Shown here: positions 1,806 through 23,120 of the stretch, piece after piece
Position numbering within the stretch: the first letter of the stretch is position 1
How the letters are laid out: each line of letters begins with the position of its first letter
NCBI GenBank assembly: GCA_002838945.1
Contig: PGXB01000027.1
Location: 1-47,350, forward strand
Source of the DNA: a candidate division Zixibacteria bacterium HGW-Zixibacteria-1
Lineage (GTDB): Bacteria; Zixibacteria; MSB-5A5; GN15; PGXB01
Reading direction: 5' to 3'
DNA length: 47,350 nucleotides
Translations under genes and position numbers: made by a program
Notes under the pieces: model-generated
What the model saw: the letters and a program-made list of their open reading frames with translations, nothing else
Databases searched by the model: none
What the model was told of the DNA's origin: nothing

Positions 1806-4670
1806 CTACTTATCGCGTTCGGCGGTCGCCTGCTGTTCTTTGATAGTCGCCTGCGCCGCAGCCAGCCGCGCAATCGGCACCCGGAAAGGTGAACAGGAGA
1901 CATAATTCAGGCCGATTCGATGGCAGAATTCCACCGATTCGGGATCGCCGCCATGCTCGCCGCAGATTCCGACCTTAAGATCGGGATTGGTGGCACGGCC
2001 CCGTTCGGTACCCATTTTCACCAGTTCGCCGACCCCTTCCTGATCGATCGTGACAAACGGATCTTTCGGAAGGATGCCCTTCTCCTGGTAGTAGCGGAGA
2101 AACTTGCCGGCATCGTCACGCGAGAAACCCATCGCCATCTGGGTCATATCATTGGTGCCGAAACTGAAGAACTGCGCTTCCTTGGCAATCTGATCGGCGA
2201 CAATGGCCGCCCGCGGAATCTCGATCATGGTTCCGACCAGATATTCCATCGATTTCAGCTTGTACTTCTTGATCACTTCATTGGCGATTCTCTCGACCAC
2301 TTCTTTCTGATTTATGAACTCATTGACATGGCCGACAAGCGGAATCATTATTTCCGGGATTATTTTCTTCTTGGCCTTGGTAAGTTCGCAGGCGGCTTCC
2401 ATAATCGCCCGGACCTGCATTTCGGTAATCTCCGGATAAACGATACCAAGACGGCAGCCGCGATGGCCCAGCATCGGGTTGACCTCTTTCAGTTCATCGA
2501 TACGGCGAAGGATCTTCTTCTTTTTCGCCAGGAGCTCATCATAGTGTTCATCATACTTGTCGAGACTTTCAATCTCTGCTTTGATGGCGGCCTTATCCGG
2601 CAGAAATTCATGAAGCGGCGGATCCAAGGTTCTGATAGTGACCGGATATCCATCCATAACATCGAACAGACCCTTGAAATCTTTTTTCTGGAAGGGCAGC
2701 AGGTGGTCCAGGGCATCCTGGCGCTCCATGGTGGAATCGGCCAGAATCATTTCCTGCACTATCGGAAGCCTGTCCTCGGCGAAAAACATATGTTCGGTGC
2801 GGCACAGACCGATTCCCTCGGCGCCGTATTTAAGCGCCTGCTGGGCGTCATGGGGCGTGTCGGCATTGGTGCGGACCCGCAATTTGCGAACTTCATCGGC
2901 CCATGTCATAAACTCGGCAAAGGCTCCCGAGAGCTCCGGCTCGATGGTTGCCACTTCACCGATAATAACCTCACCGGTGGAACCATTGAGAGTAATGACC
3001 TCACCCTGCTTGATAATCAATTTACCGATCTGGAACTGCTTCTTGGCCTCGTTGACCCGCATCGCTTCACAGCCGGCGACACAGCATTTACCCATGCCCC
3101 GGGCCACCACCGCCGCATGTGAAGTCATGCCGCCGCGCGAGGTCAGAATACCGGTCGAGGCATGCATCCCCTCGATATCATCCGGGTTGGTTTCCTGACG
3201 AACCAGAATAGGCTTGACTTTGTTCTTGGTCGCCTTGACCACATCCTCGGAGTTGAAATAGACCGCTCCCGAAGACGCCCCCGGCGAAGCCGGCAAACCT
3301 TTGGCAATCACTTCATATTTGGCCGCGGGATCCAGCCGGCGATGAAGCAACTGATCGAGCTGGCTCGGATCAATGCGCATCAAAGCTTCCTGCTTCGTAA
3401 TCAGCTTTTCCTTGACCATATCGACCGCTATCTGGAGCGCCGCCTGGACGGTTCTCTTGCCGGTCCGGGTCTGAAGCATATAAAGCTTGCCTTCCTGGAT
3501 GGTAAACTCGAAATCCTGAACATCACGATAATGTTTTTCCAACCGGTCGGTAATCTCTTTGAGCTGCTTGTAAACACCGGGCATTTCATCCTTGAGGCTG
3601 GTAATCGGCTGCGGGGTGCGAATCCCGGCCACGACATCTTCGCCCTGCGCATTTATCAGATATTCACCGTAAAATTCCTTTTGGCCATTGGCGGGATTAC
3701 GCGTAAATCCCACTCCGGTCCCGGAAGAATTACCCATATTGCCATAAACCATCGCCTGAATATTTACCGCCGTACCCAGGTCGCTGGGTATATTGTTGAG
3801 GCGGCGGTAACTGATGGCACGCGGATTGTTCCATGAGCGAAAGACGGCATCCCGGGACATCCGGAGTTGGACATAGGGATCATCGGGGAACGTTTCGCCT
3901 GTCTTGCGCTTGATGATCTGCTTGAATTTTTTGATAATATCGTTGAGATCCTCAACCTGGAGCGAAGAATCCTGCTTGATCTTTCTATCCTTTTTCTTGC
4001 TCTCGATGACACTCTCAAACTGAATTTTATCGATACCAAGAACGACATTGCCGAACATCTGGACAAATCGGCGGTAGTTATCACAGGCGAATCGCTCATC
4101 GCCGGTCTTGGCGGCCAGACCCTTTAGTGTGTCTTTATTCAGCCCCAGATTCAAAATCGTATCCATCATACCCGGCATGGAAAACTTGGCGCCCGAACGA
4201 ACCGAAACCAGCAATGGATTTTCCGGATCGCCGAATTTGGCGCCGACGATTTTTTCTATCCTGCCCATATATTCTTCAAGTTCTTTATCAATATCCTCCG
4301 GAATTTTAAGATCACTCTCATAATAGAGTGTGCAAACTTCGGTGGTAATCGTAAATCCGGGCGGGACCGGCACTCCGATCTGGCTCATTTCGGCCAGTCC
4401 GGCTCCTTTGCCGCCAAGCAAATCGCGCATACTGGCGTCGCCGTCGGCCTTACCGGCTCCAAAGAAGTAGCAAGGTTTTTGTTGCAGCAGTTTTTTGGTC
4501 GATTTATCTTTGGGTGTTTTGGCGCTCGACTTGTCTGCTTTGCTTTTAGAGGTTACGGTTTTAGCCTTAGTTTTAGGCGTGGCTTTTTTCATACTCTTTT
4601 TTCCTGGTTTAGCTGTTTTCTTCGGTCCCCTTTTATCCTTTGTTTTTCCTGCTTTTTTCGTCGCTACCAT
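1806..4670 (-). CDS. ppdK: Pyruvate, phosphate dikinase with lysine-rich N-terminal tail
   Basis: This 954-residue enzyme interconverts pyruvate + ATP + Pi and phosphoenolpyruvate + AMP + PPi in the cytoplasm, at the gluconeogenesis/glycolysis node. After residue 65 the full family layout is present: an ATP-grasp nucleotide-binding part (about 70-400, with GGKGAGLAEM and SVRSGAKFSMPGMMDT), the swivelling phosphohistidine domain with GGMTSHAAVVARG (His near 518), and a C-terminal PEP/pyruvate TIM barrel with GLCRTEHMFF, MLGHRGCRLG, GTNDMTQM and the catalytic Cys of GICGEHGGDP (about 903). Family members are normally about 875-890 residues. The extra 60-65 N-terminal residues are almost only Lys, Ala, Thr, Ser and Pro, like a histone H1 tail. 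The start at 4670 has an AGGAGG site upstream, which supports translation of the tail. Confidence 0.97.
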   Translation of the reverse strand: MVATKKAGKTKDKRGPKKTAKPGKKSMKKATPKTKAKTVTSKSKADKSSAKTPKDKSTKKLLQQKPCYFFGAGKADGDASMRDLLGGKGAGLAEMSQIGVPVPPGFTITTEVCTLYYESDLKIPEDIDKELEEYMGRIEKIVGAKFGDPENPLLVSVRSGAKFSMPGMMDTILNLGLNKDTLKGLAAKTGDERFACDNYRRFVQMFGNVVLGIDKIQFESVIESKKKDRKIKQDSSLQVEDLNDIIKKFKQIIKRKTGETFPDDPYVQLRMSRDAVFRSWNNPRAISYRRLNNIPSDLGTAVNIQAMVYGNMGNSSGTGVGFTRNPANGQKEFYGEYLINAQGEDVVAGIRTPQPITSLKDEMPGVYKQLKEITDRLEKHYRDVQDFEFTIQEGKLYMLQTRTGKRTVQAALQIAVDMVKEKLITKQEALMRIDPSQLDQLLHRRLDPAAKYEVIAKGLPASPGASSGAVYFNSEDVVKATKNKVKPILVRQETNPDDIEGMHASTGILTSRGGMTSHAAVVARGMGKCCVAGCEAMRVNEAKKQFQIGKLIIKQGEVITLNGSTGEVIIGEVATIEPELSGAFAEFMTWADEVRKLRVRTNADTPHDAQQALKYGAEGIGLCRTEHMFFAEDRLPIVQEMILADSTMERQDALDHLLPFQKKDFKGLFDVMDGYPVTIRTLDPPLHEFLPDKAAIKAEIESLDKYDEHYDELLAKKKKILRRIDELKEVNPMLGHRGCRLGIVYPEITEMQVRAIMEAACELTKAKKKIIPEIMIPLVGHVNEFINQKEVVERIANEVIKKYKLKSMEYLVGTMIEIPRAAIVADQIAKEAQFFSFGTNDMTQMAMGFSRDDAGKFLRYYQEKGILPKDPFVTIDQEGVGELVKMGTERGRATNPDLKVGICGEHGGDPESVEFCHRIGLNYVSCSPFRVPIARLAAAQATIKEQQATAERDK

Positions 4671-4735
4671 TACCGATTTCCCCTCCTGTCCTTAAATTAT
4701 GGACATAAATACATCAATTTTGAGTTATACGCAAT

Positions 4736-4777
4736 AAAAAAAGGCGGCGTAAGTGAGAATTCTCACTTGCGCCGCCC
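4736..4777 (-). terminator. Strong intrinsic terminator after the 107-residue gene
   Basis: A near-perfect inverted repeat spans 4743-4776: a GGCGGCG stem base plus AAGTGAGAA/TTCTCACTT with one G-T pair. Seven T residues follow on the minus strand. It lies between the stop of the small lysine-rich gene (4798) and the start of ppdK (4670), so ppdK needs its own promoter in 4671-4735. Confidence 0.85.
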
Positions 4778-4797
4778 AAGACTCGTTGGCAGCAAAA

Positions 4798-5121
4798 CTA
4801 CATTGTGAAAAGACGCTCACCGCTGATGATTTTCTCCAAAATCTTCAGCGTTTTCTCGACCGGCGCGTGCATAATATCAGAGGTATTAAAAGTCGAGCGA
4901 ATCACCTCGCGTGGACAGACAAAATTCGCCTTGCCTCTCCCCCCCCGAGCTTTCTTCTTGTGAGTCAGATTATACTGCCGTTGATATTCCTTGGCTTTTT
5001 CCTTGTGCATTTGATAATAACGGCGCTGGTACTCACGACGTGCCTCGGGCGTGGAAAGCTTTCCTTTGCCTTTCCTCTTACTATTAGTTTTGGTGCCGGC
5101 AGAATTAGCTGTATTAGCCAT
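4798..5121 (-). CDS. Small lysine/arginine-rich protein of unknown function
   Basis: A 107-residue protein that I cannot place in a family. Residues 1-65 are highly basic and include two related helical stretches, EYQRRYYQMHKEKAKEYQRQYN, around two Tyr-Gln-Arg blocks, followed by KKKARGGRGK. Residues 66-107 are neutral, with the sequence NFVCPREVIRSTFNTSDIMH and a helical end. It could be a nucleic-acid-binding protein; its basic half resembles the tail on the adjacent PPDK. A GAGGAGGGG site sits directly before the ATG, with a TTGACA/TATTTT promoter about 85 bases upstream and a strong terminator downstream, so it looks like a single-gene unit. Confidence 0.7.
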   Translation of the reverse strand: MANTANSAGTKTNSKRKGKGKLSTPEARREYQRRYYQMHKEKAKEYQRQYNLTHKKKARGGRGKANFVCPREVIRSTFNTSDIMHAPVEKTLKILEKIISGERLFTM

Positions 5122-5205
5122 CCCCTCCTCACTTTCAGCTAATGAAGTTATGTTACCCTAATTGAAAAAATAACTTATCGCTCGGCCCAACCTATCGACA
5201 GTGAA

Positions 5206-5234
5206 AAAATACCCAAAATGGCTTTACTTGTCAA
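5206..5234 (-). promoter_or_regulatory. Sigma70-type promoter for the small basic gene
   Basis: On the minus strand a TTGACA (5234-5229) and a TATTTT (5211-5206) are separated by 17 bases, about 85 bases upstream of the ATG at 5121. Confidence 0.55.
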
Positions 5235-5350
5235 GAGAAATTTAAATAATTTTTCGTAATTCTTTACAGGTCAGCATATTGCGATTTAATAAAATTTATT
5301 TTTTGTAATATACTATATTACGAAGACTTATGGCAAATGTTTGTAAAATA

Positions 5351-5380
5351 AAAGAGCCCCAATTGAATGGGGCTCTTTTT
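5351..5380 (-). terminator. Terminator ending the 12-gene operon
   Basis: The arms AAAGAGCCCC (5351-5360) and GGGGCTCTTT (5369-5378) enclose an 8-base loop. T-tracts follow on both sides, so it can work in both directions. It is 19 bases past the stop codon of the last operon gene at 5399. Confidence 0.9.
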
Positions 5381-5398
5381 TGCCATATTTATTTCACA

Positions 5399-6193
5399 TT
5401 ATGTTTCGGTGACTCTTCCCCGACTATTAAAATAACTTACGATTTCAAAAATCGCCCAGATAATAAAAACGCCGAACACCAGGAACCAGAAAAGCATGAA
5501 GCCCCCCTTGCCGGCGCCCCATGCGACCGCCGTCCAGTCGTTGAGAATCTGGATGCGCTGCACAAAAAGAGAAATTCGGCCCATCACCGTATAGCCGAAC
5601 GAAGCGCCGAAACCGATCATAAGAATCCAGATTCCGAAACTTGACACGATCTTGAATAATCCGGTGTGCTCCTTGGAAAAGAAGAAATAAAACAAGGCGG
5701 CCAGTGTCCCGAGGAATATTATTATACTGGCAATACCGGAAGTGGTGTCAAACACAGAACGACCCGCGAAGTTGCTCCAGTCAATAATGCCCCTCATGGC
5801 CGACAGCATTTGCTCAATCACTCTGGCCTGCATTTCGCGGGGAACGGCCATGCCGGCGGCGATACCCATGTACAGAGCAATCGGCCAGCGGCTGATCCAG
5901 GATCTTTTCCGGGAGAACCGGGTCCACATCATGATGCCCAGCGCGGCCGGTATCAGATACCAGAATTGCGAAGAATTCAGCCATAGAAAATACCAGTCGC
6001 CGTCATTGAGCCTGGCGAAAAGATTGGGAATCAAAATCTGGTGCCATAAAACCAGGGCAAAATACCCGGCCGAAACTCCGACCACCAGATGTTCCGCAAA
6101 TTTGTAAAACGGATTGTCTTTGTACAGAAACGAGAAGGTGCATAATGTCAGAAATGCTCCTAATGTCGTCCATAAAAATGTACTCCATTCCAT
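5399..6193 (-). CDS. Module 3, subunit D: polytopic membrane protein (D3)
   Basis: A 264-residue inner-membrane protein with about six hydrophobic segments. It is the third paralogue of the D family. All three share FLYKDNPxYK near residue 25, a GxSAGY(W/F) segment, an RxxWISRWPxA loop, a KEHxGxF loop, and the near-invariant GIWxLMIxFGASFGYTVMxR stretch followed by SL and a DW ending. D3 has a longer C-terminal end with an extra hydrophobic segment (GGFMLFWFLVFGVFIIWAI). It is the last gene of the operon, 13 bases after C3, and is followed by a terminator. I do not recognise a named function. The conserved Gly-rich 'FGASFGYTVM' segment suggests a structural or transport role in a membrane complex. 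Confidence 0.85.
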   Translation of the reverse strand: MEWSTFLWTTLGAFLTLCTFSFLYKDNPFYKFAEHLVVGVSAGYFALVLWHQILIPNLFARLNDGDWYFLWLNSSQFWYLIPAALGIMMWTRFSRKRSWISRWPIALYMGIAAGMAVPREMQARVIEQMLSAMRGIIDWSNFAGRSVFDTTSGIASIIIFLGTLAALFYFFFSKEHTGLFKIVSSFGIWILMIGFGASFGYTVMGRISLFVQRIQILNDWTAVAWGAGKGGFMLFWFLVFGVFIIWAIFEIVSYFNSRGRVTET

Positions 6194-6206
6194 ATATGAT
6201 CACCTC

Positions 6207-7076
6207 CTATCTCAGTTTCCGTCGGTTGCGTGTTGCCAGATATCCCACATTACCCATCAGGATAAATAAAATAATCAGAATATGGGCAAAGACCTGAATT
6301 CTCATACCATCAATCGCGCGCCCGGGGTTGTCGCATAGTTTCTCAATCTGGGCCGACCCCAGAAGCCCGGCCGCAAGTCCGAAAATCTGGCCGGAACCAA
6401 GATATGGATACATATCGGCCCCCATAACTCCCGTAACCGCCAGGGCCAGAGGAACACCATAATTTCCGTGCCCGTAAGTGATCCACATTTCAGCCACATT
6501 GCCCGCCGCCATGTCCAGAACCAGCTTGCACTGATCGAAGTTCTTGACACCTTTCATCATCGGGATACTGTCGATCGGCGTGCTGTAATAATCGGTCGGA
6601 AACGGGACGCGAAAATCAAGACCCATGGCCTGGATAACCATGGCCGGATAGGGCTTGTATCCCAGGAAAACATAATCAATCCCGTTGACGATTTCTCTCC
6701 CTTTATAGAAGACATCATTATAGGTGGCATCATGACTGACCGAGTCGGTGATATCCTTAATCACCTGATCGACCATCCCCTGACCAAGATTGGAAAGGGT
6801 CCCGAAAATCACTTTTACTTTCTTGCGAAAACACATTTCCGCAATGACATAGGTGGTCGGGTGAAGTTCCGCCAGCGCATTGGGATCATAGTCAACCGAC
6901 AAATAAATCATATCGCCCTCTTCCAGCGATTCGAATCTATTGTAGATTGTCTTGACTTCATTACTGATTGTAATCGGAACCGCGAAATCCCAGAGATATG
7001 TGATGACACATACTATCGCCAGAAAGAGGAAGACCCAGCGCCGATCGAGCGACATCATACGATCAAATATATTCAT
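6207..7076 (-). CDS. Module 3, subunit C: membrane-anchored Rossmann-like protein (C3)
   Basis: A 289-residue protein: one N-terminal membrane segment (about 13-32), a soluble domain of about 220 residues, and a C-terminal membrane segment (about 262-282, HILIILFILMGNVGYLATRNRR). The soluble domain starts with an EGDMIYLSVDYDPNALAELHP-like stretch, shared with C1 (LVSLDYDPPSAPELQP) and C2 (LLSYDYGPSMAPEVEP). It continues with an alternating strand-helix pattern and a Y-rich 'DYYSTPIDS' motif also found in C1. All C copies end in NIGY- or NAAF-type membrane anchors. C3 lacks the double GG of GLLGG found in C1 and C2, having AAGLLGSAQIE instead. Function unknown. It starts 13 bases after B3. 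Confidence 0.85.
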   Translation of the reverse strand: MNIFDRMMSLDRRWVFLFLAIVCVITYLWDFAVPITISNEVKTIYNRFESLEEGDMIYLSVDYDPNALAELHPTTYVIAEMCFRKKVKVIFGTLSNLGQGMVDQVIKDITDSVSHDATYNDVFYKGREIVNGIDYVFLGYKPYPAMVIQAMGLDFRVPFPTDYYSTPIDSIPMMKGVKNFDQCKLVLDMAAGNVAEMWITYGHGNYGVPLALAVTGVMGADMYPYLGSGQIFGLAAGLLGSAQIEKLCDNPGRAIDGMRIQVFAHILIILFILMGNVGYLATRNRRKLR

Positions 7077-7089
7077 ACTTCAATCCTCC

Positions 7090-7731
7090 TCAATCCTTGC
7101 CCAGGTAGGCTCGTTCGATTCCCAGAATCACCTTCAGGGCCGTGGCCACCATGCCGAGACCGACTCCGATAACAATGGCCCGTTTTGCGGCCAGGTTCGG
7201 AACATTGAGAAGCCACACCGAGAATTTTTCCATGATCGGCTGAAGTGGTCCCAGGAAGGGATTGAAACGGAGCATGATAACCAGCGCCGCAATTAACAGC
7301 AGGGTCGCCAGAAGAGACCTTGCCCGGAAGGCCCGATAGGCGGCCGATGCAATAAAGAAGGCCAGCAGTGAAAACATCGTGGCCTGAATCGGAATAACAA
7401 TATGATTATAAAAATGCACGAACATATAATTGTCGGAACCCACCGGCGTCGAGAAATTCCGGAAATAATCGAAGCCGAAGAATGTCATAAAAAATAATCC
7501 GGCCAGAGTGACAATGGCATATTGCCAGTTGGGTTTCTTATATTTTACTTTATCCCAGGAGACTCTTATCAGCGACCAGATGCCCAGCGCCAGGGCAAAA
7601 ACACCGATAATCATCATCCAGTCCATAAAGAATGCATTTACCCATTCGGACGCCTGATGCGGAATATAATACTGTATGATCATGGCGAATCCGAATACGA
7701 AAACCATCATTAATGGGAACTGTCTTTTCAT
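7090..7731 (-). CDS. Module 3, subunit B: small polytopic membrane protein (B3)
   Basis: A 213-residue integral membrane protein with about six membrane segments, third copy of the B family. Family hallmarks are an MKRQFPL- or MRREIPM-like start, an aromatic-Pro-His loop (YYIPHQ), an FxxASAxYRAFRAR segment in the middle, and a C-terminal RAIVIGVGLG...ILGIERAYLG stretch. B3 carries all of them. The conserved Arg-rich 'YRAFRAR' faces the cytoplasm in a simple positive-inside model. It lies between A3 (gap 15) and C3 (gap 13), so translation is probably coupled. No known enzyme or transporter signature was seen. Confidence 0.85.
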   Translation of the reverse strand: MKRQFPLMMVFVFGFAMIIQYYIPHQASEWVNAFFMDWMMIIGVFALALGIWSLIRVSWDKVKYKKPNWQYAIVTLAGLFFMTFFGFDYFRNFSTPVGSDNYMFVHFYNHIVIPIQATMFSLLAFFIASAAYRAFRARSLLATLLLIAALVIMLRFNPFLGPLQPIMEKFSVWLLNVPNLAAKRAIVIGVGLGMVATALKVILGIERAYLGKD

Positions 7732-7746
7732 CTTTGTCTGCCCTTC

Positions 7747-8979
7747 TTAACCTGTAACATGGAAAAATTCAGCAAAGCCCTGATAACCCAGCATCAATGA
7801 TACAAGGCCGATTACAGTCAGGATTATTACGGCCGCTTTGGCATAATCCTGGGCCTTCAGCGAACCCAGCAGCAGGGGTTCCTTGCCAAGGTATGCCGAC
7901 GCCGCGTAGAGTTCCTCGCCGATCAAAGTGTAGTCGCAGGCAACCACGAAAAACGGTATTTGCGAAATTTCATCGGTCCCTGAAATCTGGATCGAGCCGG
8001 CGACAACGCCGGTTTCGGCCAAAATCAGCGACTCGGCATAGAACTTACCCATATATAAATTTGTGGCCGGTCGTTCACGAAGCATCACGCCGTTGACGCC
8101 GGCGACATAGGCAAACTGCTGATTGGTCACGAAATAGACCATATCTTCATTAAAGGCGTCCGGGCGGCCCGCATCCAGATATGACGTGCGCACCGTTTCC
8201 TGCGCGACCGTCATAACGATCGGGTCATAGCACGGGACAATCAAACCTGTCTGGTACTCCGCCACTTTTTTGGCGACGCGCCCGAGAATCGTGTAGGACG
8301 CAATCGTGGCAATATCGGCGGCGGTTCCCAGCCCGAGGACATACAAAATCGGCTTGCCCATCTCAGTTGCCCGGCCGATGGCCTCATCGATCGCCTCGAT
8401 GCCGGCCAGACGACGCACATACAGGTCGGCCCCGCCTTTGGCTCTGTTAATGAAGTATATGGTAAGGAACAGAAATCCGGCGACCATCAACAAAACCGGC
8501 AGTCTTTCCCAGTTGAACCATTGGCCGTACGATTGCACCGGCCCGAAAATCTCCGATTCCGAATAAACAGTACTGTCAATAGTCAAAGCCCGGACCTTAT
8601 AATAATAATTTTGATAATCGGGCATATAATCATTATCGCCCTCATTTAGTGCCCCGGCATCCTTGTAACTGTTGACGCCGACCAACAGGCCGGAGCGGAC
8701 GCTGAACGGTCCATCGGGGGTATCTGCCCGGTAAACCATATAGCCGACAAAATCTTTCCGACCCGCCTCCTCATCAGGAGACTCGTCCCAGATCAGATTG
8801 ATCGCATGGCCATGGTCATCCGGAGCATCTTCCGCGGACAGACCCTTTACCGGAGCCGGCGGCGGTGCGACCTGGACCGTATCGGGCGTCTCCATGGTTC
8901 CGGGACTTTCCTGCGCAGAAGTTGTCGCCCATGCAATCATAAGAAGCATAGTGAAAACAACTATCATTTTTAGCTTCAT
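7747..8979 (-). CDS. Module 3, subunit A: exported Fn3 / membrane / DUF6754-like protein (A3)
   Basis: A 410-residue protein. The start at 8979 is chosen because a GAGG site lies 5 bases upstream and a signal peptide follows (MKLKMIVVFTMLLMIAWATTSAQ); an upstream extension in the same frame runs through D2 and is rejected. The order is signal peptide (1-23), a fibronectin type III-like domain (about 45-150), a membrane segment (about 165-185), a cytoplasmic alpha/beta domain (about 190-370) and a C-terminal membrane segment. The cytoplasmic domain has AIGRATEMGKPILYV, a PFFVVACDYTLIGEELYAAS core and LLLGSLKAQD, the features I associate with proteins annotated DUF6754 (from memory). It is more divergent than A1 and A2: the PGINDMD motif is replaced by LGLGTAAD. 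Confidence 0.85.
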   Translation of the reverse strand: MKLKMIVVFTMLLMIAWATTSAQESPGTMETPDTVQVAPPPAPVKGLSAEDAPDDHGHAINLIWDESPDEEAGRKDFVGYMVYRADTPDGPFSVRSGLLVGVNSYKDAGALNEGDNDYMPDYQNYYYKVRALTIDSTVYSESEIFGPVQSYGQWFNWERLPVLLMVAGFLFLTIYFINRAKGGADLYVRRLAGIEAIDEAIGRATEMGKPILYVLGLGTAADIATIASYTILGRVAKKVAEYQTGLIVPCYDPIVMTVAQETVRTSYLDAGRPDAFNEDMVYFVTNQQFAYVAGVNGVMLRERPATNLYMGKFYAESLILAETGVVAGSIQISGTDEISQIPFFVVACDYTLIGEELYAASAYLGKEPLLLGSLKAQDYAKAAVIILTVIGLVSLMLGYQGFAEFFHVTG

Positions 8980-9005
8980 AAAAGCCTCGTGCTGTTTATG
9001 TGAAT

Positions 9006-9830
9006 TTAACTTATTAATCCCAACCAATCTTTGAATAGATATGTGAGGCGGCCGACCAGAAGGGAAACGCGTCCCATCACGGTATAGCCGAATGAGGCTC
9101 CAAAAGTTATCATTAACACCCATATTCCAACTTTCGAGGCAACTCCGAAAAACCCTTTATGCTCCTTCGAGAAAAAGAAGTAAATCAGGCCGCTGAAAAC
9201 CCCGATAAAGATACCCCAGTTGGAAAGCGTCATAACAAGCTGACCGGTCGACGACAGTGAGAGATCGGAGAAAAACGGTCCGATTCCTTTCCAATCGACG
9301 AGCAGCGGCACGAATGTATTGCTGACCTGGCTGATAAAATCGGTTCTCAGATAACGAACCAAATTCAAACCGGCCGTGGTACCGACAATCCAGGCCAGGG
9401 CCCAGCGGGAAATCCAGCCAGCTTTTGAGGACAGTCTCATCAACAGCAAAATGCCAAGAATCAGCGGTACTATATAAAAAATGTTGAATCCCTTGTAGGG
9501 AACACCAAAAGTACTCGATAGGCTTTCCGATAAATTCGGAAGCATGTTGCCGACAATGGTTGACCAGAATCCGACACACATCCAGTAAGCTGCCGAAACA
9601 CCGACAAATAAATTCTCCGCAAACTTATAATAAGGATTATCCTTGTAGAGAAATGAAAAGATGGCCAGAGTCAGAAATGCGGCCAGAGTTAAGAGGAAGG
9701 CATCGCGGACAGAAAACCATAACCCTGAATCCTCATCATGAATGGCAATACCCTTGATGATCCAACTGATCAGGAAAAAGGCGATGACAGCCGCCAGAAT
9801 AATCTTACTAATCCGCTTCGAGTCAGCCAT
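9006..9830 (-). CDS. Module 2, subunit D: polytopic membrane protein (D2)
   Basis: A 274-residue D-family membrane protein. The start at 9830 is preferred over an upstream ATG at 9857 because GGAG lies 5 bases before it and it begins one base after the C2 stop (TGAAATG arrangement). It has an extra N-terminal membrane segment (KIILAAVIAFFLISWIIKG) that D1 and D3 lack, then the family motifs FLYKDNPYYK, GVSAAYW, WISRWALAW, KEHKGFFG and GIWVLMITFGASFGYTVMGR. About seven membrane segments are expected. The strong C-terminal motif conservation against weak conservation elsewhere points to a shared protein-contact or functional site. Function unknown. Confidence 0.85.
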   Translation of the reverse strand: MADSKRISKIILAAVIAFFLISWIIKGIAIHDEDSGLWFSVRDAFLLTLAAFLTLAIFSFLYKDNPYYKFAENLFVGVSAAYWMCVGFWSTIVGNMLPNLSESLSSTFGVPYKGFNIFYIVPLILGILLLMRLSSKAGWISRWALAWIVGTTAGLNLVRYLRTDFISQVSNTFVPLLVDWKGIGPFFSDLSLSSTGQLVMTLSNWGIFIGVFSGLIYFFFSKEHKGFFGVASKVGIWVLMITFGASFGYTVMGRVSLLVGRLTYLFKDWLGLIS

Positions 9831-9831
9831 T

Positions 9832-10743
9832 TCAGCTCCGCTTCCGTTTCGATACAAAGTATGAAATATTTCCGATAACGATAAAGGCCATGACTATCAA
9901 ATGGGCCAGGGTCTGGGGACCCATCATTTTAATTCCCGGTGTGGGTGATTTTTCGAATCGCTTATATACTTTTTTAAGCTGCGATTCATACTCGGCCGCA
10001 CCTTTTATTCCGCCCAGAAGCCCCACCATCTGTTTGGGATAATACGGATACAGCAGCGGCGCCGATACGGCCGCGCAGCCTCCCGCCGTCGGTATATTAC
10101 CCTGTGACCCGGCGAAAAGGATCCATTCTTTGACCCCGGGATAGCCGCCGCCGATAGAAATCAGAAGATCCATATCCTTGAGCGATCGAATGCCGTTGAA
10201 TATCGCCAATGAGTCAAGATCCCTGCCGTCCACATCCGTCAAATACATTTTTCTGAAATCGGTGATGATGACATTCAGAACCCCGGTGCCGCCCGCCTTA
10301 AAGCCGATATTAATGTAGTCGACACCATAAACCTTGTCGGGAAAATCTTTTTTGACGACAGAATCAATGGCCGTCCCCGCCAGCGACTGCCCGGTTGCCC
10401 AGAGACACATGACATAAACCCTGTGCCCCTTGGCCAGAGCATGCCGCAAAAAGGCGTTCGACATCGGTTCAACTTCGGGAGCCATCGAAGGGCCGTAATC
10501 GTACGACAGCAGTATCTTCGATCCCGCGGGCAGATTTTCGATCTTATTAAAAACATCCATGACAATCGGAGTTGCTTTTTCGGAAAAAGTAATATTGAAC
10601 AAAAGCGGCACCGATACCGACAAGCCGATAAACAGGAAAATTATCTGCCTCTCCACTTCTTTGCCGCGCAGGGATAAAATGAACAGCCAGAGCAATCCGA
10701 TCGCTATGATAATCAATGATATGATCAAACCTATATTACTCAT
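9832..10743 (-). CDS. Module 2, subunit C: membrane-anchored Rossmann-like protein (C2)
   Basis: A 303-residue C-family protein with two N-terminal hydrophobic segments (about 4-24 and 33-55), a soluble domain (about 65-270) and a C-terminal anchor (about 278-296, IVMAFIVIGNISYFVSKRKR). The soluble part has LLSYDYGPSMAPEVEP, a 'GVDYINIGFKAGG' strand-loop also found in C1 (YGRDYVNLGFQTGN), a GGGYPGVKEW motif, and GLLGGIKGAAEYE shared with C1. The start overlaps the end of B2 by 8 bases, which implies coupled translation. Gly-rich loops after predicted strands would fit nucleotide or substrate binding, but no named motif is present. Confidence 0.85.
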   Translation of the reverse strand: MSNIGLIISLIIIAIGLLWLFILSLRGKEVERQIIFLFIGLSVSVPLLFNITFSEKATPIVMDVFNKIENLPAGSKILLSYDYGPSMAPEVEPMSNAFLRHALAKGHRVYVMCLWATGQSLAGTAIDSVVKKDFPDKVYGVDYINIGFKAGGTGVLNVIITDFRKMYLTDVDGRDLDSLAIFNGIRSLKDMDLLISIGGGYPGVKEWILFAGSQGNIPTAGGCAAVSAPLLYPYYPKQMVGLLGGIKGAAEYESQLKKVYKRFEKSPTPGIKMMGPQTLAHLIVMAFIVIGNISYFVSKRKRS

Positions 10744-11413
10744 TGTCCGTCCCCAGATGTGTTCGTTCGACGCCGAGTATCAGCCGTAACGACATCGATA
10801 CGACCCCCAGTGCAATACCGATCATAATGGCTCTCTGCCCGGCCAGGTTGGGCGAAGTCATAATCCAGATGGCCAGGTTGGGGATTTGCAGGATGGAAAA
10901 TGATTCCGGGATCCAGGAAGTGGCATAGACACCAAGCGGCGTTCGGCCCAGCAGAATGATAAATGCCGCCACCAGAAGAATGGTGGCATCGCTGTTCTTG
11001 GCCCGGAAAGCGCGATACGACGCTGACGCGACATAGAAGGCCAGAAGGGCATACATGGTGGCGCCCAGCGGATTGAAAATCCAGTCGTACATCATCTGGA
11101 ACATCGACCCGGGAGCCGCCACATCGGCGGTAATACCGCCGGGATTAAATAATTTGCCAAGTCCTGCCGCCAGCATAACAATGAAAGCGACAACCGTAAC
11201 TATCGAAAAGCCCCAATCGGTTCTTTTCTTGAAAATCTTATCCGCATGAACACGTATCAAATTGCCGCCGCCGAGAAAGAAAGCAAAGACGGCGATAATA
11301 TCGAAAAACAGCGAGAAATCCTCACCGAGCGTCTCGATCGGAGGAAAGAAAACCGACAGGACCAGCACGGTTCCGACAACAAAAGTAATGGCTAATGGTA
11401 TCTGTTTTTTCAA
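10736..11413 (-). CDS. Module 2, subunit B: small polytopic membrane protein (B2)
   Basis: A 225-residue B-family membrane protein. It has the MKKQIPLAITFVVG start, an FFPP loop where B1 and B3 have IPH, LAFYVASASYRAFRAKNSDA in the middle, and RAIMIGIALGVVSMSLRLIL followed by GVERTHLG at the C terminus. Compared with B1 and B3 it carries an extra loop around residue 95-105 (FNPGGITADVAAPG). It lies 22 bases after A2 and overlaps C2 by 8 bases. About six membrane segments; no known function. Confidence 0.85.
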   Translation of the reverse strand: MKKQIPLAITFVVGTVLVLSVFFPPIETLGEDFSLFFDIIAVFAFFLGGGNLIRVHADKIFKKRTDWGFSIVTVVAFIVMLAAGLGKLFNPGGITADVAAPGSMFQMMYDWIFNPLGATMYALLAFYVASASYRAFRAKNSDATILLVAAFIILLGRTPLGVYATSWIPESFSILQIPNLAIWIMTSPNLAGQRAIMIGIALGVVSMSLRLILGVERTHLGTDNE

Positions 11414-11435
11414 TCCAATCTCCGGCTTTCAATCA

Positions 11436-12665
11436 TCAGCTTTGAACATTGAAAATTTTAATCATAAACTCATACAAATCCACGAAAATTTCTACACCCC
11501 AGGCACTGGCAATGGTCGCGGATAAGACGCCGATCAATATCGCCACCATCGCCAGGAACTTGCCCACATCCTGACCCTTAAGAGAACCAAGCTGTTTCGG
11601 CTCGTTGGATAGATAGGCCGAGGCCGCAAAAAGCTCCTCCCCGATCAAAGTATAGTCGCAGGCCGCCACAAAAAACGGCAGCTGCGCCGGCATGGCGGTT
11701 CCGGCGATCTGGATGGCCCCGATCGAATTGCCGGTTTCGGCAAGAATCAGCGATTCGGCAAAAAAGGCGCCGAGATAGAAACATGTCGCCGGCTTTTCTC
11801 TGACCATAATACCGTCAACCGCCGCTACATAGCCGAATTGCTCATCGGTAATATAACGAACCATGTCATCATTATAGGCATCCGGGCGGCCCGCCCCCAT
11901 ATAAGCTTCCTTGATGGTCTCGCGGGCGGTTGTCATCACGATCGAGCGCGATACCGGCATATTTATCTTTATATCATAATCGGCCACCACCTTGGCCACA
12001 CGGCCGAGAATAGTGATACCGGCAATAGTCTGAACATCATCCATGTCATTGATGCCGGGAATAAATAGAATGGGACGGCCCATTTCGGTGGCCCGGCCAA
12101 TGGCCTCATCGATCGCTTCAAGACCGGCGATCTTTCTGATAAACAGCTTCCGGCCGCGCTTGGCATGGGCTATGAAAAATGTGACCGAACCGGCTATCAG
12201 GAGACCGATAATAAAAAGATTCAGCAATCTAAAGTTAATGAATTCGGTGTTGGGAACAACCGGGTCGGACTCGGCGGAAAATATCTGACCGCCGCTATAA
12301 TTGAGGCCGATTTTATAGACATAGGCAATACCGTTTTCGACCGACTTGTCCTTGAAGGAACTATCGCCGGGAAGAACCGCGCCAACCAGCGTAAACTCAT
12401 CCGATCCGTCTGCCGCCCGATAAATATCATACCCCAGAATCCTGCCCGAAGCATCGTCATCCGGGGAAATTGTCCAGGACACTCCGGTATTGTCGCCGCG
12501 GTCATAATTAAAATCTTTGGCAATAACATTGGTCGGCGGCGCCGGTAAAAAAACTTCGTGAGATAAGGTATCTTCGGCGGCAGGTTCGGGTTCCTGTGCC
12601 GCAACGGGCAATGATAGAAGGGCAAAAAAAAGAAAAATAAAAATCGAAATCTTCTGTAATTTCAT
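11436..12665 (-). CDS. Module 2, subunit A: exported Fn3 / membrane / DUF6754-like protein (A2)
   Basis: A 409-residue protein. The ATG at 12665 is chosen because a clear signal peptide follows (MKLQKISIFIFLFFALLSLP...AAQ); the open frame continues upstream only as a shadow of D1. After the signal come a Fn3-like domain (about 40-150), a membrane segment (about 160-180, LLNLFIIGLLIAGSVTFF), a cytoplasmic domain and a C-terminal membrane segment. Shared with A1: IAGLEAIDEAIGRATEMGRP, PGINDMDDVQTIAG, GRPDAYNDD, NSIGAIQIAGT and LPFFVAACDYTLIGEELFAA. It starts 23 bases after D1. The Fn3 part would sit outside the cell membrane and the conserved alpha/beta domain inside. Confidence 0.87.
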   Translation of the reverse strand: MKLQKISIFIFLFFALLSLPVAAQEPEPAAEDTLSHEVFLPAPPTNVIAKDFNYDRGDNTGVSWTISPDDDASGRILGYDIYRAADGSDEFTLVGAVLPGDSSFKDKSVENGIAYVYKIGLNYSGGQIFSAESDPVVPNTEFINFRLLNLFIIGLLIAGSVTFFIAHAKRGRKLFIRKIAGLEAIDEAIGRATEMGRPILFIPGINDMDDVQTIAGITILGRVAKVVADYDIKINMPVSRSIVMTTARETIKEAYMGAGRPDAYNDDMVRYITDEQFGYVAAVDGIMVREKPATCFYLGAFFAESLILAETGNSIGAIQIAGTAMPAQLPFFVAACDYTLIGEELFAASAYLSNEPKQLGSLKGQDVGKFLAMVAILIGVLSATIASAWGVEIFVDLYEFMIKIFNVQS

Positions 12666-12688
12666 CACTTTGAATAAATCATCTTTCA

Positions 12689-13333
12689 CTATTGGATCAT
12701 TCCCAGCCAATCTCCAAAAATAAAATCCATCCGACCAATCAATAGCGACATACGACTCATAACCGTATAGCCAAATGATGCCCCGAAAGTTATCATTATG
12801 ACCCAGATACCAATCTTGGCGGCACCGCCAAAGGCTCCCACATGCTCCTTGGAAAAATAAAAATATACCAGACCTGTAAAAGTGCCGACCACGACAACCA
12901 GATTGGCCACGATCGTACCAAAGGATGCCGAGAAAATCGACGCTCCGTAATGGGTGCTGAAAAAGGGCAGAATCGAACTCTGCACCTGAGCCATCACGTT
13001 GGAGGAGAAATAATTCATCAGATACAAACCGGCAATGGCGCCGACAATAAAGGCCAGCGGCCAGCGGGAAATCCACCCAATACTGGGGATCAGCCTTAAA
13101 ATCATCATAAAACCAAGAATGGCTCCGACCAGCAGCATATAATCATGATTGACGGAGACACCGACATACAACTTTCCATACAGATTATCCCAGTATGAAA
13201 CAACAAACCAATAGCCGGCCGATATCCCGACAAAGACCGCTTCGCTGAGTTTGTACCACGGGTTGTCTTTATAAAGAAATGATATTATTCCCAGTGTAAA
13301 AAAGGCCGCCAGCCAGGTCCCAAATAATTCCAT
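12689..13333 (-). CDS. Module 1, subunit D: polytopic membrane protein (D1)
   Basis: A 214-residue D-family membrane protein, the shortest of the three, with six predicted membrane segments (about 3-19, 28-45, 64-82, 90-107, 137-160, 172-192). It carries FLYKDNPWYKLSE, VGISAGYW, GWISRWPLAF, SKEHVGAFGG and GIWVIMITFGASFGYTVMSR followed by MSLLIGR and a DWLGMIQ end. D1 defines the core of the family; D2 and D3 add a membrane segment at the N and C terminus respectively. It starts 41 bases after C1, the largest gap inside the operon. Function unknown. Confidence 0.85.
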   Translation of the reverse strand: MELFGTWLAAFFTLGIISFLYKDNPWYKLSEAVFVGISAGYWFVVSYWDNLYGKLYVGVSVNHDYMLLVGAILGFMMILRLIPSIGWISRWPLAFIVGAIAGLYLMNYFSSNVMAQVQSSILPFFSTHYGASIFSASFGTIVANLVVVVGTFTGLVYFYFSKEHVGAFGGAAKIGIWVIMITFGASFGYTVMSRMSLLIGRMDFIFGDWLGMIQ

Positions 13334-13374
13334 ATTATCTTACTCCGGTTTGTATCAAACCAAGCGCCTCATTT

Positions 13375-14358
13375 TTATTTCCTGCTTCTTTTCTCACCTA
13401 GAAAAAAGGCCGCATTACCAATAATGATAAAAGCGATAACAATAACATGTGCAAACGACTGGGAAACCATAAACTTGGTCCCTTTGCCGAGAACCCCGGT
13501 AACCTTCTCAAATTCCGCGGCCCCGTTCAAGCCACCCAGAAGACCAACCAATTGTCCCGATCTGATGTATGGATATACCTGAGGAGCCTGAACCGCGGTA
13601 TTTCCCGCGCCAAGCTTAACACCAAAGCGGTCAACGCCAATTTGCACCCATTCAATCGTCCCCGGATAACCGGCGGACAAATTGAACGAAAAATCTATAT
13701 TCGAAAAATTGGATATATTCTTGACAAGTTCCAGCGAATCATAGGGCGTTCCGTAATAATCGCTCTGAAACATACTCTTGAAACTGCCGCCCATGCGCTG
13801 AATGACAAATTCATTTCCGGTCTGGAAGCCGAGGTTGACATAATCCCGGCCATATTGAAGATTGAGCGCCTGGATATCCGGCGATTCCATGATTTTCTGG
13901 ATGGCCAGTTCCGCCTGTTGCGGTCCCTGGGGCCAAAGCCCCATTATTATTACCTTAAGATCACGTTTAAAGCAAAGTCCGAAAAATGATTCAGCCATCG
14001 GTTGCAGCTCCGGCGCCGACGGCGGATCATAGTCCAGCGACACCAGCACTTTCGAGCCCGGCTTCAGATCCATGACGGTGTCATACAGCGCTTTCACCTC
14101 AGGCGAAAGCTCGATCTTCTGCTGGATGCTCATAAAGAAAGGCAGAACCACGGCGATACCGACAAAAAGGAAAACGACCCGACGCTCGTAAACTTTACCC
14201 TGAATGGTCCTGACCAGAATAAAAAGCAGGAACAGCGCAATCAAAACTATAATAATATATGAAACTGCCGTTGAAAATACGACCGGTTTGGGAATGACAA
14301 AGTAGAAGAACAATGTCAGAATTAGTACGCCCGCATATACCAGAAAATCCTTTTTCAT
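13375..14358 (-). CDS. Module 1, subunit C: membrane-anchored Rossmann-like protein (C1)
   Basis: A 327-residue C-family protein with three N-terminal hydrophobic segments (about 5-22, 30-50, 70-88), a soluble domain (about 95-290) and a C-terminal anchor (HVIVIAFIIIGNAAFFLGEKR). The domain has GSKVLVSLDYDPPSAPELQP, MGLWPQGPQQAELAIQK, the 'DYYGTPYDS' motif shared with C3, SAGYPGTIEW shared with C2, and GLLGGLNGAAEFE. Its ATG overlaps the B1 stop codon by one base (TAATG), a sign of translational coupling. Which side of the membrane the domain faces is uncertain, because the number of N-terminal segments differs between copies. Confidence 0.85.
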   Translation of the reverse strand: MKKDFLVYAGVLILTLFFYFVIPKPVVFSTAVSYIIIVLIALFLLFILVRTIQGKVYERRVVFLFVGIAVVLPFFMSIQQKIELSPEVKALYDTVMDLKPGSKVLVSLDYDPPSAPELQPMAESFFGLCFKRDLKVIIMGLWPQGPQQAELAIQKIMESPDIQALNLQYGRDYVNLGFQTGNEFVIQRMGGSFKSMFQSDYYGTPYDSLELVKNISNFSNIDFSFNLSAGYPGTIEWVQIGVDRFGVKLGAGNTAVQAPQVYPYIRSGQLVGLLGGLNGAAEFEKVTGVLGKGTKFMVSQSFAHVIVIAFIIIGNAAFFLGEKRSRK

Positions 14359-15011
14359 TATTCACCTCCAAGATGCGCCCGCTCGATCCCAAGAATGATC
14401 CTGAGCGACGTGGAAACTATGCCCAGCGCAATACCGATCATGATGGCCCGCTGGCCGGCCCCGTTGATATAGTTCATTATCCAGGAAGCTACTTTTGACG
14501 GATATATGACTTCGGGAAGATGAAAAATTCCTGCAATTGCATCGCCGACCGGAACCCGGCCGATCATGACAAAGAAGGCCGCAACCAGGAGCAGAGTAGC
14601 CTCGAGATTTCTGGCCCGAAAGGCCCGATAGGAGGCCGACGCCACAAAAAAGGCCAGCAAGGCAAACATTGTGGCCGACAGCGGCGTGTATATCCACTGG
14701 TAAAGCCAGTCGAATTTGGTGCCAAAATCACGAAACCCCTCGCCTCCGGAAAATCCAATAAGCACTATCAGGGCAAATGATACAACGATCACGATCGAAT
14801 AGCCCCAGTCGCGACTCTTACGGTAAACCTTATCGAAGGAAATTTTCAGCAAATTGAGCGCCCCGAGCCAAATGGCACAGGCGCCGATAATGGAGAACCA
14901 GTCTGAAAACCAGTTATTCAACTGATTGAAAGGATAGTGAGGAATAAAGTATTGAATCAGGAAAACGAATCCAACCACCGCAGTTATTATCATCGGAATT
15001 TCACGACGCAT
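14358..15011 (-). CDS. Module 1, subunit B: small polytopic membrane protein (B1)
   Basis: A 217-residue B-family membrane protein with about six membrane segments. Motifs are MRREIPMIITAVVG at the start, QYFIPHYP in the first loop, LLAFFVASASYRAFRARNLE in the middle and RAIMIGIALGIVSTSLRIIL with GIERAHLG at the end. The B copies keep their C-terminal third much better than their loops. It lies 18 bases after A1 and overlaps C1 by one base. No catalytic or transporter motif was recognised. Confidence 0.85.
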   Translation of the reverse strand: MRREIPMIITAVVGFVFLIQYFIPHYPFNQLNNWFSDWFSIIGACAIWLGALNLLKISFDKVYRKSRDWGYSIVIVVSFALIVLIGFSGGEGFRDFGTKFDWLYQWIYTPLSATMFALLAFFVASASYRAFRARNLEATLLLVAAFFVMIGRVPVGDAIAGIFHLPEVIYPSKVASWIMNYINGAGQRAIMIGIALGIVSTSLRIILGIERAHLGGE

Positions 15012-15029
15012 ATGCCAGTCCTCTTATTC

Positions 15030-16277
15030 CTATTCGCCTATTACTCTAAAAAAGTTGGAGAATTGATATAAATTAAACGTCTCCAATATCACACCGATTA
15101 TAATCGATAACAAAATGGCGGCTTTGGCCGCATCCTGCCCTTTGATGGAACCAAGAAGCCGGGGTTCGCGGCTGAGATAAGCCGACGCTGCAAAAAGCTC
15201 TTCGCCGATCAAAGTATAGTCACACGAGGCCACGAAAAAGGGCAATTGCGAGGGCTGCCCTGTTCCGGCTATCTGGATGGCGCCGATTGAGTTACCTGTT
15301 TCGGCCATAATCAGCGACTCGGCAAAAAAGGCGCCCATATAAAAAATCGTGGCCGGTTTATCGCGGACAATAATTCCATCTATCGCGGCCGCATATCCAA
15401 ATTGATCATCGGTAATGTAATGAACCTGATCTTCATTGAAGGCATCCGGCCGACCCGCCTTGCTGTAAGATTCCTTGACGATTTCCTTCGCCGTAATCAT
15501 AACCAGCGAACGACTGACCGGCACTTCGATCTGGGTCTCATACTCAGCCGCCAATTGGGCCACCCGGCCGAGAATGGCCACACCGGCAATAGTCTGGACA
15601 TTATCCATATCATTGATGCCGGGTACGAACAAAATCTTCCGGCCCATTTCGGTGGCTCGGCCAACAGCCTCATCAACCGATTCCAGACCGGCGATTTTCC
15701 TGATATATAACTCCTGTCCCGATTTTGCCTTCTGTATAAAGAAAAATATCGCGACACAAACAAAAATGGTCCCGACAAAAACATTGATTCGCTCCATATT
15801 GAACCATTGGGCCGAAGACTTGACCGGACCGACCGGATCGGATTCGGAAAGCACCGACCAGATGACGCTGCCGCCACGTTTGAGCTCATTAACAGCGGCC
15901 ACCCGATAAAAATATTCCACCCCGTCCTTGACGGCATTGTCAATAAATTCGACCTTGCCGGCAGGGACATCTCCCACCACCGTAAATGAATCGGCTCCGA
16001 CTTCTGACCGCATAACGCGGTAGGCGGTAACCTTACCGTCCTCATGATCATCAACCGATATGTCCCAATCGATACGGATTGCACCGCCGCCGTCATTCGG
16101 CTGATCCTTAACAACAATATTTTTGGGAATAACCGGCATTACATCCGGCGGAACCTGAATCAGAGTATCAGCGGCGGCCTGTGATGAATCAATCATTTCC
16201 TGGGCCGACAAAGAAACTGTCGCCGCAAAAACCGCCAGCAGCGCCAGAATAGAAAATTTGAAAATATAAGATTTCAT
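15030..16277 (-). CDS. Module 1, subunit A: exported Fn3 / membrane / DUF6754-like protein (A1)
   Basis: A 415-residue protein and the first gene of the 12-gene operon. A signal peptide (1-25, ending SLSAQ) is followed by a Fn3-like domain (about 48-150, PKNIVVKDQPNDGG onwards), a membrane segment (about 163-183) and a cytoplasmic alpha/beta domain with ESVDEAVGRATEMGRKILFV, PGINDMDNVQTIAG, GRPDAFNEDQVHYITDDQFG, NSIGAIQIAGTGQPSQLPFF and CDYTLIGEELFAASAYLS, then a C-terminal membrane segment. The domain resembles proteins annotated DUF6754 (from memory). The ATG lacks a well-placed Shine-Dalgarno: the best candidate, GTGAGG, lies about 15 bases away, inside the arm of a leader hairpin, which could link hairpin folding to expression. 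Confidence 0.88.
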   Translation of the reverse strand: MKSYIFKFSILALLAVFAATVSLSAQEMIDSSQAAADTLIQVPPDVMPVIPKNIVVKDQPNDGGGAIRIDWDISVDDHEDGKVTAYRVMRSEVGADSFTVVGDVPAGKVEFIDNAVKDGVEYFYRVAAVNELKRGGSVIWSVLSESDPVGPVKSSAQWFNMERINVFVGTIFVCVAIFFFIQKAKSGQELYIRKIAGLESVDEAVGRATEMGRKILFVPGINDMDNVQTIAGVAILGRVAQLAAEYETQIEVPVSRSLVMITAKEIVKESYSKAGRPDAFNEDQVHYITDDQFGYAAAIDGIIVRDKPATIFYMGAFFAESLIMAETGNSIGAIQIAGTGQPSQLPFFVASCDYTLIGEELFAASAYLSREPRLLGSIKGQDAAKAAILLSIIIGVILETFNLYQFSNFFRVIGE

Positions 16278-20637: not shown

Positions 20638-21756
20638 CTAGGTCTTTTCATACACATCAGCCATCGCTTCCCGGAAAAGTTCCAGCCGCGCTGTCACTTC
20701 CTCGGTATCCTCGCGCTCAGGAACACCCTCGCGCCGCTCCATCTGATAGATGCAGTAAGGGTTATTGGCCCGGCACCCGGTGGCGGAGTACGAAGTTACC
20801 GTGCATCCCCCCCGGCAAAGCGGGAGATATTTGCAGTCATGGCAATCACCATCGGCGCTTTCGCGCGTGAATTTGCGGTTATAAGCGAAACTGTCGGGAT
20901 CATTCCAGATTTCGGAAAGCGATCTATCGCGAATATTGCCCTCGACAAAAGTTTCCGGCATCGACAAACAACCCTTGATGTCGCCGTTCGACTCGACTCC
21001 GAGAACACGCATCCCGGCGTAACAGCCGTAGTACGGCCGCTCGTTCCACAGCTTGTATCCCTTGTGGCCGTAAAAGCCGATATTCTCCCCGATATCGATA
21101 TCCATCCTGCCATCTTTTTTGAATTCTATGCACTTATCGATCAGCTTCGGATAATTTTCCAGGCTCAGAACCAGGTTGCTGTTTTCCGCCATCCGCCCCG
21201 TGCAGGTTGTCATCTGAATCCGCCACTGCCGGCAGCCGACATCGAGGAGGTGTTGCCTGATCTCATCCAGTTCGCCAAGATTGATATTCGATATCTGCGT
21301 GACGGCTGCGTATTTGACATTGCCGTTTTTGCTCATCATTTCCATGGCGCTATAGGCCCTGCGGAAACTATCATCACGCTGCCGGATATAGTTGTGGGTT
21401 TTTTCGGTTCCATCGAAACTAACACCGATTTTGCTCATGCCAAGCCGCTCAAAATCATCGACGACACCCTTCGTGATCGCATAACCGTTGGTTATGAGAC
21501 ACGGTTTGATGCCCCTCCGGCCGATCCGCTCGGCCAGCTGTCGCCAGTCGTCACGAAGCAACGGCTCGCCCCCGGAGAGAACTATCATGTATGCCCGGAG
21601 ATCGGCCAGTTCATCAATAAGATTCAGAGCCTCCTGGGTGCTGAGCTCGTCAGGGCGCTTCTTGCCGGCCGAAGTGCCGCAGTGGATACAGCGCATATTG
21701 CAGGCAAAGGTTATTTCCCAGACAACCGCATGGGGGTAAAAATCAAAATCGCTCAT
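20638..21756 (-). CDS. Cassette B, second radical SAM/SPASM enzyme
   Basis: A 372-residue radical SAM enzyme with a SPASM-type C terminus. The SAM [4Fe-4S] cluster motif CNMRCIHC is at residues 19-26 (Cys19, 23, 26), followed by LSGGEPLLRDDW and a GVSFDGTEKTHNYIRQRDDS substrate-side stretch. The C-terminal part has GCYAGMRVLG, GDIKGCLSMPE and ECHDCKYLPLCRGGC-type ligands (here DCHDCKYLPLC), which bind auxiliary clusters. It is the paralogue of the enzyme at 23730-24845, with nearly identical motifs and length. Its start overlaps the stop of the preceding enzyme by 4 bases (ATGA). Such pairs modify ribosomal peptides, usually forming C-S or C-C crosslinks; the reaction here is unknown. Confidence 0.93.
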   Translation of the reverse strand: MSDFDFYPHAVVWEITFACNMRCIHCGTSAGKKRPDELSTQEALNLIDELADLRAYMIVLSGGEPLLRDDWRQLAERIGRRGIKPCLITNGYAITKGVVDDFERLGMSKIGVSFDGTEKTHNYIRQRDDSFRRAYSAMEMMSKNGNVKYAAVTQISNINLGELDEIRQHLLDVGCRQWRIQMTTCTGRMAENSNLVLSLENYPKLIDKCIEFKKDGRMDIDIGENIGFYGHKGYKLWNERPYYGCYAGMRVLGVESNGDIKGCLSMPETFVEGNIRDRSLSEIWNDPDSFAYNRKFTRESADGDCHDCKYLPLCRGGCTVTSYSATGCRANNPYCIYQMERREGVPEREDTEEVTARLELFREAMADVYEKT

Positions 21757-23099: not shown

Positions 23100-23120
23100 C
23101 AGGTCATCTCGTTTTACATC

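Follow-up and report, generated by a model that had tools for sequence, protein, structure and literature searches.

A tripled A-B-C-D membrane gene module in Zixibacteria and its association with a GlmL/MutL-family protein

The stretch of DNA analysed here (the window, 47,350 nucleotides of contig PGXB01000027.1 from candidate division Zixibacteria bacterium HGW-Zixibacteria-1) carries three tandem copies of a four-gene membrane module, A-B-C-D, in which A belongs to the Pfam family DUF6754 (PF20539). Comparison of loci across phyla suggests that the functional unit is larger than A-D and comprises six core genes, A-F, often joined by G and H. The best explanation, and the one toward which we lean, is that A-B-C-D form an inner-membrane complex that works with E and F in an envelope task and was tripled in Zixibacteria.

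Co-retention of A-D with E and F

A preliminary description, made from the letters of the window, had proposed a large envelope complex of three paralogous sets, or three alternative ones, and asked whether the four families always occur together. In a co-occurrence check, strict A-B-C-D order was found in ~70 loci from at least 10 phyla, with the same order nearly everywhere. The counts of C and D track those of A 1:1 in 17 genomes, the exceptions being an occasional extra A and fragmentary genomes, and there are essentially no orphans. Scattering of the four families was not seen, and the four genes also diverge together (see below), so that A-B-C-D stands as an obligate unit. As an account of the whole system the proposal was incomplete, since E and F co-occur with the module almost perfectly and A is a named family.

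The strongest functional evidence is that A and E are retained together even where they are unlinked. Among 148 sampled Planctomycetota genomes, A was found in 39, E in 38, and F in 36; A and E occur together in 37, A only in 2, E only in 1, and neither in 108 (phi of ~0.95). The genomes with both include three (G105, G177, and G222) in which E lies hundreds of kilobases from A. In ~40 loci, two soluble proteins, E (~610 aa) and F (~375 aa), are encoded next to A, either immediately upstream or in divergent orientation; the two are fused in Neomarinimicrobiota. Farther upstream, before E, G (~130 aa) recurs in 21 loci and H (~150 aa) in 10. One locus (L035) reads H-G-E-F followed by three A-B-C-D modules. 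The genome of the window has one E and one F for its five modules, unlinked to the tandem (C3:85998-89814). A signal-peptide protein specific to Zixibacteria lies between E and F there, and genes resembling tolQ-tolR-tolA-tolB come next. The protein between E and F in Zixibacteria loci (for example, L119 7879-8661) has a C-terminal transmembrane helix (TM) and matches no Pfam family.

E is a member of the GlmL/MutL family PF13941 (E value of 6e-128, 428 bits against a gathering score of 27). To judge from its motifs it is ASKHA ATPase-like and a putative ATPase: the phosphate 1, phosphate 2, and adenosine motifs are intact, and DCGSTTTK, DIGGATTD, and the S-G-G of (G)SGGVLSHAP are invariant in 22 aligned rows, which average 71% identity across phyla. 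F has weak barrel-sandwich similarity (biotinyl/lipoyl; RnfC_N / NqrA_N with E values of 0.03-0.07, below cut-off) and a weak SPT5 KOW-like match at its C terminus.

The closest relatives of E are GlmL and ornithine-degradation Or-4 proteins (E values of 8e-68 and 1e-64), a likeness that would suit a membrane-bound enzyme with a labile (e.g., corrinoid) cofactor, for which E would be the ATP-dependent reactivase, as proposed for GlmL. The many invariant acidic, Arg, and Gln residues of the A cytosolic domain, which resemble those of an active site, would also fit such an enzyme. We nevertheless consider it unlikely. E scores below the curated GlmL cut-offs NF040745, NF040744, and TIGR01319 (229/475, 219/600, and 173/204 bits, respectively), no mutase or corrinoid protein was seen among the recurrent neighbor families of the fetched loci, nor any B12-dependent mutase subunit at the E locus of the window's genome, and neither A nor C matched a cofactor-binding family.

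A scan of ~85,000 species genomes gave relatives in Zixibacteria, Planctomycetota, Neomarinimicrobiota, Gemmatimonadota, Latescibacterota, WOR-3, Fermentibacterota, Eisenbacteria, Coatesbacteria, Calditrichota, and a few Acidobacteria and Myxococcota metagenome-assembled genomes. DUF6754 is present in 60/60 sampled relatives, typically in 4-6 copies, and in 0/14 well-known control genomes. Beyond the Planctomycetota counted above, some of which are single large contigs, the system was found in 3/99 sampled Acidobacteriota. Among the genomes searched, those of Neomarinimicrobiota, Acidobacteria, and Latescibacterota have one module and those of Planctomycetota one or two, while WOR-3, Fermentibacterota, Eisenbacteria, and Zixibacteria mostly have 2-7. 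A tblastn search for carriage on plasmids gave no match.

Organization and age of the tandem array

The first observation is confirmed: the tandem consists of 12 minus-strand open reading frames (ORFs) in the order A-B-C-D, three times over (Table 1). The end of every ORF coincides exactly with that first described; the starts given here were trimmed to the likely ATG or TTG. Successive genes from A1 to D3 are separated by 18, -1, 41, 23, 22, -8, 1, 26, 15, 13, and 13 bases. Given this tight spacing, and the purine-rich, ribosome-binding-like stretches that precede most of the 12 starts, the genes likely form one operon. Promoter-like matches 5' of A1 are at best suggestive, and no terminator-like site was found downstream of D3 (positions 4600-5500).

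Table 1. Genes of the tandem array, in order of transcription (positions in the window)
Gene	Position	Strand	Description	Evidence
A1	15030..16277	-	lineage T1; DUF6754; predicted signal peptide, periplasmic Fn3, TM, cytosolic alpha/beta domain, TM	ORF; PF20539 E=2.9e-126, 420 bits; AlphaFold2 pLDDT 92.3; Fn3 by PDB profile search and Foldseek
B1	14358..15011	-	polytopic, ~6 predicted TM; SYRAFRAR motif in predicted cytosolic loop	ORF; no Pfam/NCBIfam family
C1	13375..14358	-	three predicted N-terminal TMs, periplasmic alpha/beta domain, C-terminal TM	ORF; AlphaFold2 pLDDT 94.0; no PDB match at E<=1e-3
D1	12689..13333	-	polytopic; motifs FSFLYKDN / FGASFGYTVM	ORF
A2	11436..12665	-	lineage T2, closest to the module found singly in other phyla; DUF6754 and Fn3	PF20539 E=9.9e-126, 418 bits; trees
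B2	10736..11413	-		48% identity to B1, E=3e-66
C2	9832..10743	-		36% identity to C1, E=2e-58
D2	9006..9830	-	extra predicted N-terminal TM	46% identity to D1, E=4e-65
A3	7747..8979	-	lineage T3; DUF6754 and Fn3	PF20539 E=5.9e-116, 386 bits; trees
B3	7090..7731	-		43% identity to B1, E=4e-56
C3	6207..7076	-	one predicted N-terminal TM	33% identity to C1, E=1e-51
D3	5399..6193	-		40% identity to D1, E=4e-45

Paralogy between the modules is far beyond chance. As had been noticed, each gene has paralogues in the other modules (24-54% identity overall, E values from 7e-30 to 1e-147), and the signature motifs named at the time are present. Identities between modules are 42-54% for A (E values of 1e-103 to 1e-147), 39-48% for B (1e-45 to 3e-66), 24-36% for C (7e-30 to 2e-58), and 40-46% for D (4e-45 to 4e-65); no match between the families A, B, C, and D fell below an E value of 0.01. 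Measured against the corresponding operon of a congeneric species, all 12 genes are under purifying selection, with nonsynonymous divergence (dN) of ~0.04-0.16 against synonymous divergence (dS) of ~0.7-2, the latter partly saturated.

Trees were built for DUF6754 and for the concatenated A-B-C-D of 104 complete modules. In both, the tandem positions T1, T2, and T3 form separate, well-supported clades; T2 lies closest to the module that other phyla have in single copy, and T1 and T3 are older branches. The three positions are therefore separate, old orthologous lineages and not a recent amplification, in agreement with the earlier proposal that the duplication is old and that all copies are selected. 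Within modules, each A stays with its own B, C, and D: the distance matrices of the four families correlate at r values of 0.75-0.81 across the 104 modules, against means of 0.24-0.34, with no value over 0.52, in 200 within-locus exchanges of partners.

The count of three holds for the tandem, but the genome (3.83 Mb) has five modules, the other two being solo A-B-C-D modules (loci L006 and L007) whose A proteins are short and lack Fn3. Two adjacent short DUF6754 genes at G008 C1:1645616-1647296, with similar pairs in G004 and G014, point to duplication of A only inside a solo module. All three sets of the tandem lie on one contig in 12/17 genomes across an order, most of the others being fragmentary or incomplete. 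At one locus (L013 15715-17427), the third module has its C and D joined in frame as a single ORF of 571 residues, which may be natural or an assembly error.

Directly 3' of D3, at 1806-5121 on the minus strand, are genes for a 107-aa lysine-rich protein and a pyruvate phosphate dikinase, a pair kept behind the tandem in many Zixibacteria loci. We considered this pair, and the fatty-acid genes downstream of the module in Phycisphaerae, as parts of the system and judged both to be lineage synteny, because neither recurs across phyla.

Topology and a proposed mechanism

A1, A2, and A3 are full-length matches to PF20539 (386-420 bits against a gathering score of 27 bits for the 257-residue domain), and all five A proteins of the genome belong to this family, far above its cut-off. 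B, C, and D reached no Pfam or NCBIfam family. AlphaFold2 models built on locus-derived alignments (113 rows for A1, 76 for C1) have high mean predicted local distance difference test (pLDDT) values (Table 1). The A1 model consists of a signal helix, Fn3, a TM, an alternating alpha/beta domain, and a TM; that of C1 has TMs, an alternating alpha/beta domain, and a TM. The Fn3 fold of A is found with titin Fn3 profile matches (E value of 2.4e-22) and with Foldseek (E value of 7.6e-6, probability of 1.0), and Fn3 matches dominate the Foldseek list of A1; Pfam fn3 by itself is below cut-off (14.6 versus 25 bits). For C1, the best Foldseek match in the PDB had an E value of 1.9e-3 and a TM-score of about 0.2, and PDB sequence searches with A, C, E, F, and G profiles returned Fn3 for A and nothing useful for the others. 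The A and C domains have no detectable homology, although both show alternating secondary structure.

Loop charges in the paralogues, read by the positive-inside rule, would place the Fn3 of A outside and its DUF6754 domain in the cytosol, and the alpha/beta domain of C, between TMs, in the periplasm; B is predicted to have ~6 TM and D ~5-6.

With this arrangement, B and D would make up the membrane core, A would present its DUF6754 domain to the cytosol and usually an Fn3 domain to the periplasm, and C would extend a periplasmic arm alongside that Fn3. E, together with F, would dock on the cytosolic domain of A, where ATP binding or hydrolysis could switch or scaffold the complex, and the change would be relayed through B and D to C and Fn3 outside. 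An energized cell-envelope task, such as moving or assembling envelope material, seems a likelier role than metabolism. In Zixibacteria, an early tripling would have produced three non-interchangeable, co-transcribed sets that have one E and one F in common.

Whether these sets would build one assembly or three divides the evidence. The fixed order, the single operon, kept across a whole order of bacteria, and the single E and F common to all sets favor dedicated protomers of one assembly, made in fixed proportion, which we slightly prefer; were the complexes independent, one would expect them to scatter and to be lost singly. That each set builds a complex of its own, differing in substrate or partner, with no mixed assembly, is nonetheless a serious possibility. 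It is favored by the partner-specific co-divergence, in which A1 goes with B1-C1-D1, by the solo modules with a different A, and by two Zixibacteria loci (L040 and L053) in which the tandem consists of T1 and T3 only; one module also suffices in several other phyla.

The genomic surroundings are suggestive of an envelope link. In Fermentibacterota, A-B-C-D is followed by a TonB-dependent receptor and ExbB-ExbD-ExbD-TonB; in WOR-3, ExbB-ExbD-ExbD-TonB comes after A-B-C-D with a DUF4388 protein and others in between; in Gimesia, ExbB-ExbD-ExbD-TatD precede G-E-F-A-B-C-D; and in Zixibacteria, tolQRAB-like genes follow E-X-F, X being the protein between E and F. In the WOR-3 locus L077 (6774-8364), with equivalents in L066 and L080, the DUF4388 protein is followed by a protein without a Pfam match that we took for roadblock-like. 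Adjacency in four phyla could mean that A-B-C-D is the inner-membrane partner of Ton/Tol, an accessory of outer-membrane uptake or export driven by the proton motive force. This seems improbable to us, however, since such neighbors do not recur in Neomarinimicrobiota, Phycisphaerae, Acidobacteria, or Latescibacterota loci, and Pfam finds neither MotA/TolQ/ExbB (PF01618) nor ExbD (PF02472) domains in A-D.

Several points weigh against an A-B-C-D complex working with E and F at the envelope. The Ton/Tol neighborhood is missing in most phyla and could be chance adjacency; to our knowledge, GlmL-type ASKHA proteins go with soluble corrinoid enzymes and not with membrane complexes; and T2 is absent from the two T1/T3 loci, so that the three sets are not strictly obligatory there. 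That the genes encode co-transcribed membrane proteins with no common function is a reading that we disfavor as very improbable given the strict unit across phyla, the co-divergence, and the 1:1 counts.

Returning to the preferred complex of A-D with E and F, we tentatively put forward a more specific form of it: a new trans-envelope machine of A-B-C-D protomers, energized or gated by the GlmL-type ASKHA ATPase E with F, widespread in largely uncultured phyla of the Fibrobacteres-Chlorobi-Bacteroidetes (FCB) and Planctomycetes-Verrucomicrobia-Chlamydiae (PVC) type, and built in Zixibacteria as a hetero-oligomer for which the tandem operon supplies three dedicated types of protomer.

Other features of the window and comparison with known systems

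Farther along the window, all on the minus strand, are three other features. A tandemly duplicated candidate cassette for ribosomally synthesized and post-translationally modified peptides occupies 20638-26383; it includes two paralogous Cys-containing short ORFs at 23170-23286 (MLFLVDPNKPKKEVCIPLIFCTTKCYDVAYPLYGLPPD) and 26276-26383 (MLFLVDPDKPTLNVCTFDCKKFCKGVFYPLYGIEI), each upstream of a radical-SAM/SPASM maturase-like gene pair. A secreted protein at 27812-29668 combines an aspartic-protease-like domain with a DegP-like C-terminal stretch resembling PDZ, and a glycine-rich repeat protein at 39775-40680 matches the LA_2272 surface-repeat family.

As far as we have seen, the A-F system is real, widespread, and undescribed. 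The literature covered, which was partial, holds no mention of DUF6754 and nothing on the system by way of GlmL/MutL; such absence is not proof, but it accords with the initial impression that no description existed. Two candidates were discarded: an anti-phage defense system, as A-H matched no PADLOC model at an E value of 0.01, and an ABC transporter or Lpt-like exporter, as A-D, E, and F contain no ABC family (ATPase or membrane domain) above cut-off and the TMD0 match of B1 is sub-threshold (E value of 0.37).

None of the known systems that we considered includes A-F by family membership. GlmL/MutL proteins (PF13941, TIGR01319) are accessory proteins of the adenosylcobalamin-dependent glutamate and ornithine mutases. 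E resembles them in its ASKHA core and intact phosphate motifs but differs in carrying ~130-150 further C-terminal residues, in scoring under the equivalog cut-offs, and in being tied to membrane proteins and not to a mutase. In PilM-PilN-PilO of type IV pili, GspL of type II secretion, and FtsA, a cytosolic ASKHA-fold protein serves an envelope complex whose partners are bitopic and polytopic. This offers an analogy for E and A-D, but B, C, and D have no sequence match there and E matches FtsA at only 0.095. With RNF/NQR the system has polytopic partners and the weak similarity in F in common, whereas F is below the cut-offs and no other Rnf or Nqr subunit family occurs among A-D. Tol-Pal and TonB-ExbB-ExbD are neighbors in four phyla, yet A-D share no homology with their subunits. 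The Pfam entry for DUF6754 itself describes a single domain without function, and no such entry covers the partners B, C, D, F, G, and H.

Set against these systems, A-F would unite a DUF with several families that Pfam lacks in a single machine and would take the GlmL/MutL ATPase family beyond B12 enzymology. It is a six-gene core system with a highly conserved putative ATPase, present in every sampled relative and in about a quarter of the sampled Planctomycetota, for which no function has been described, and its tripling in Zixibacteria may serve as a natural experiment on the diversification of paralogous membrane assemblies.

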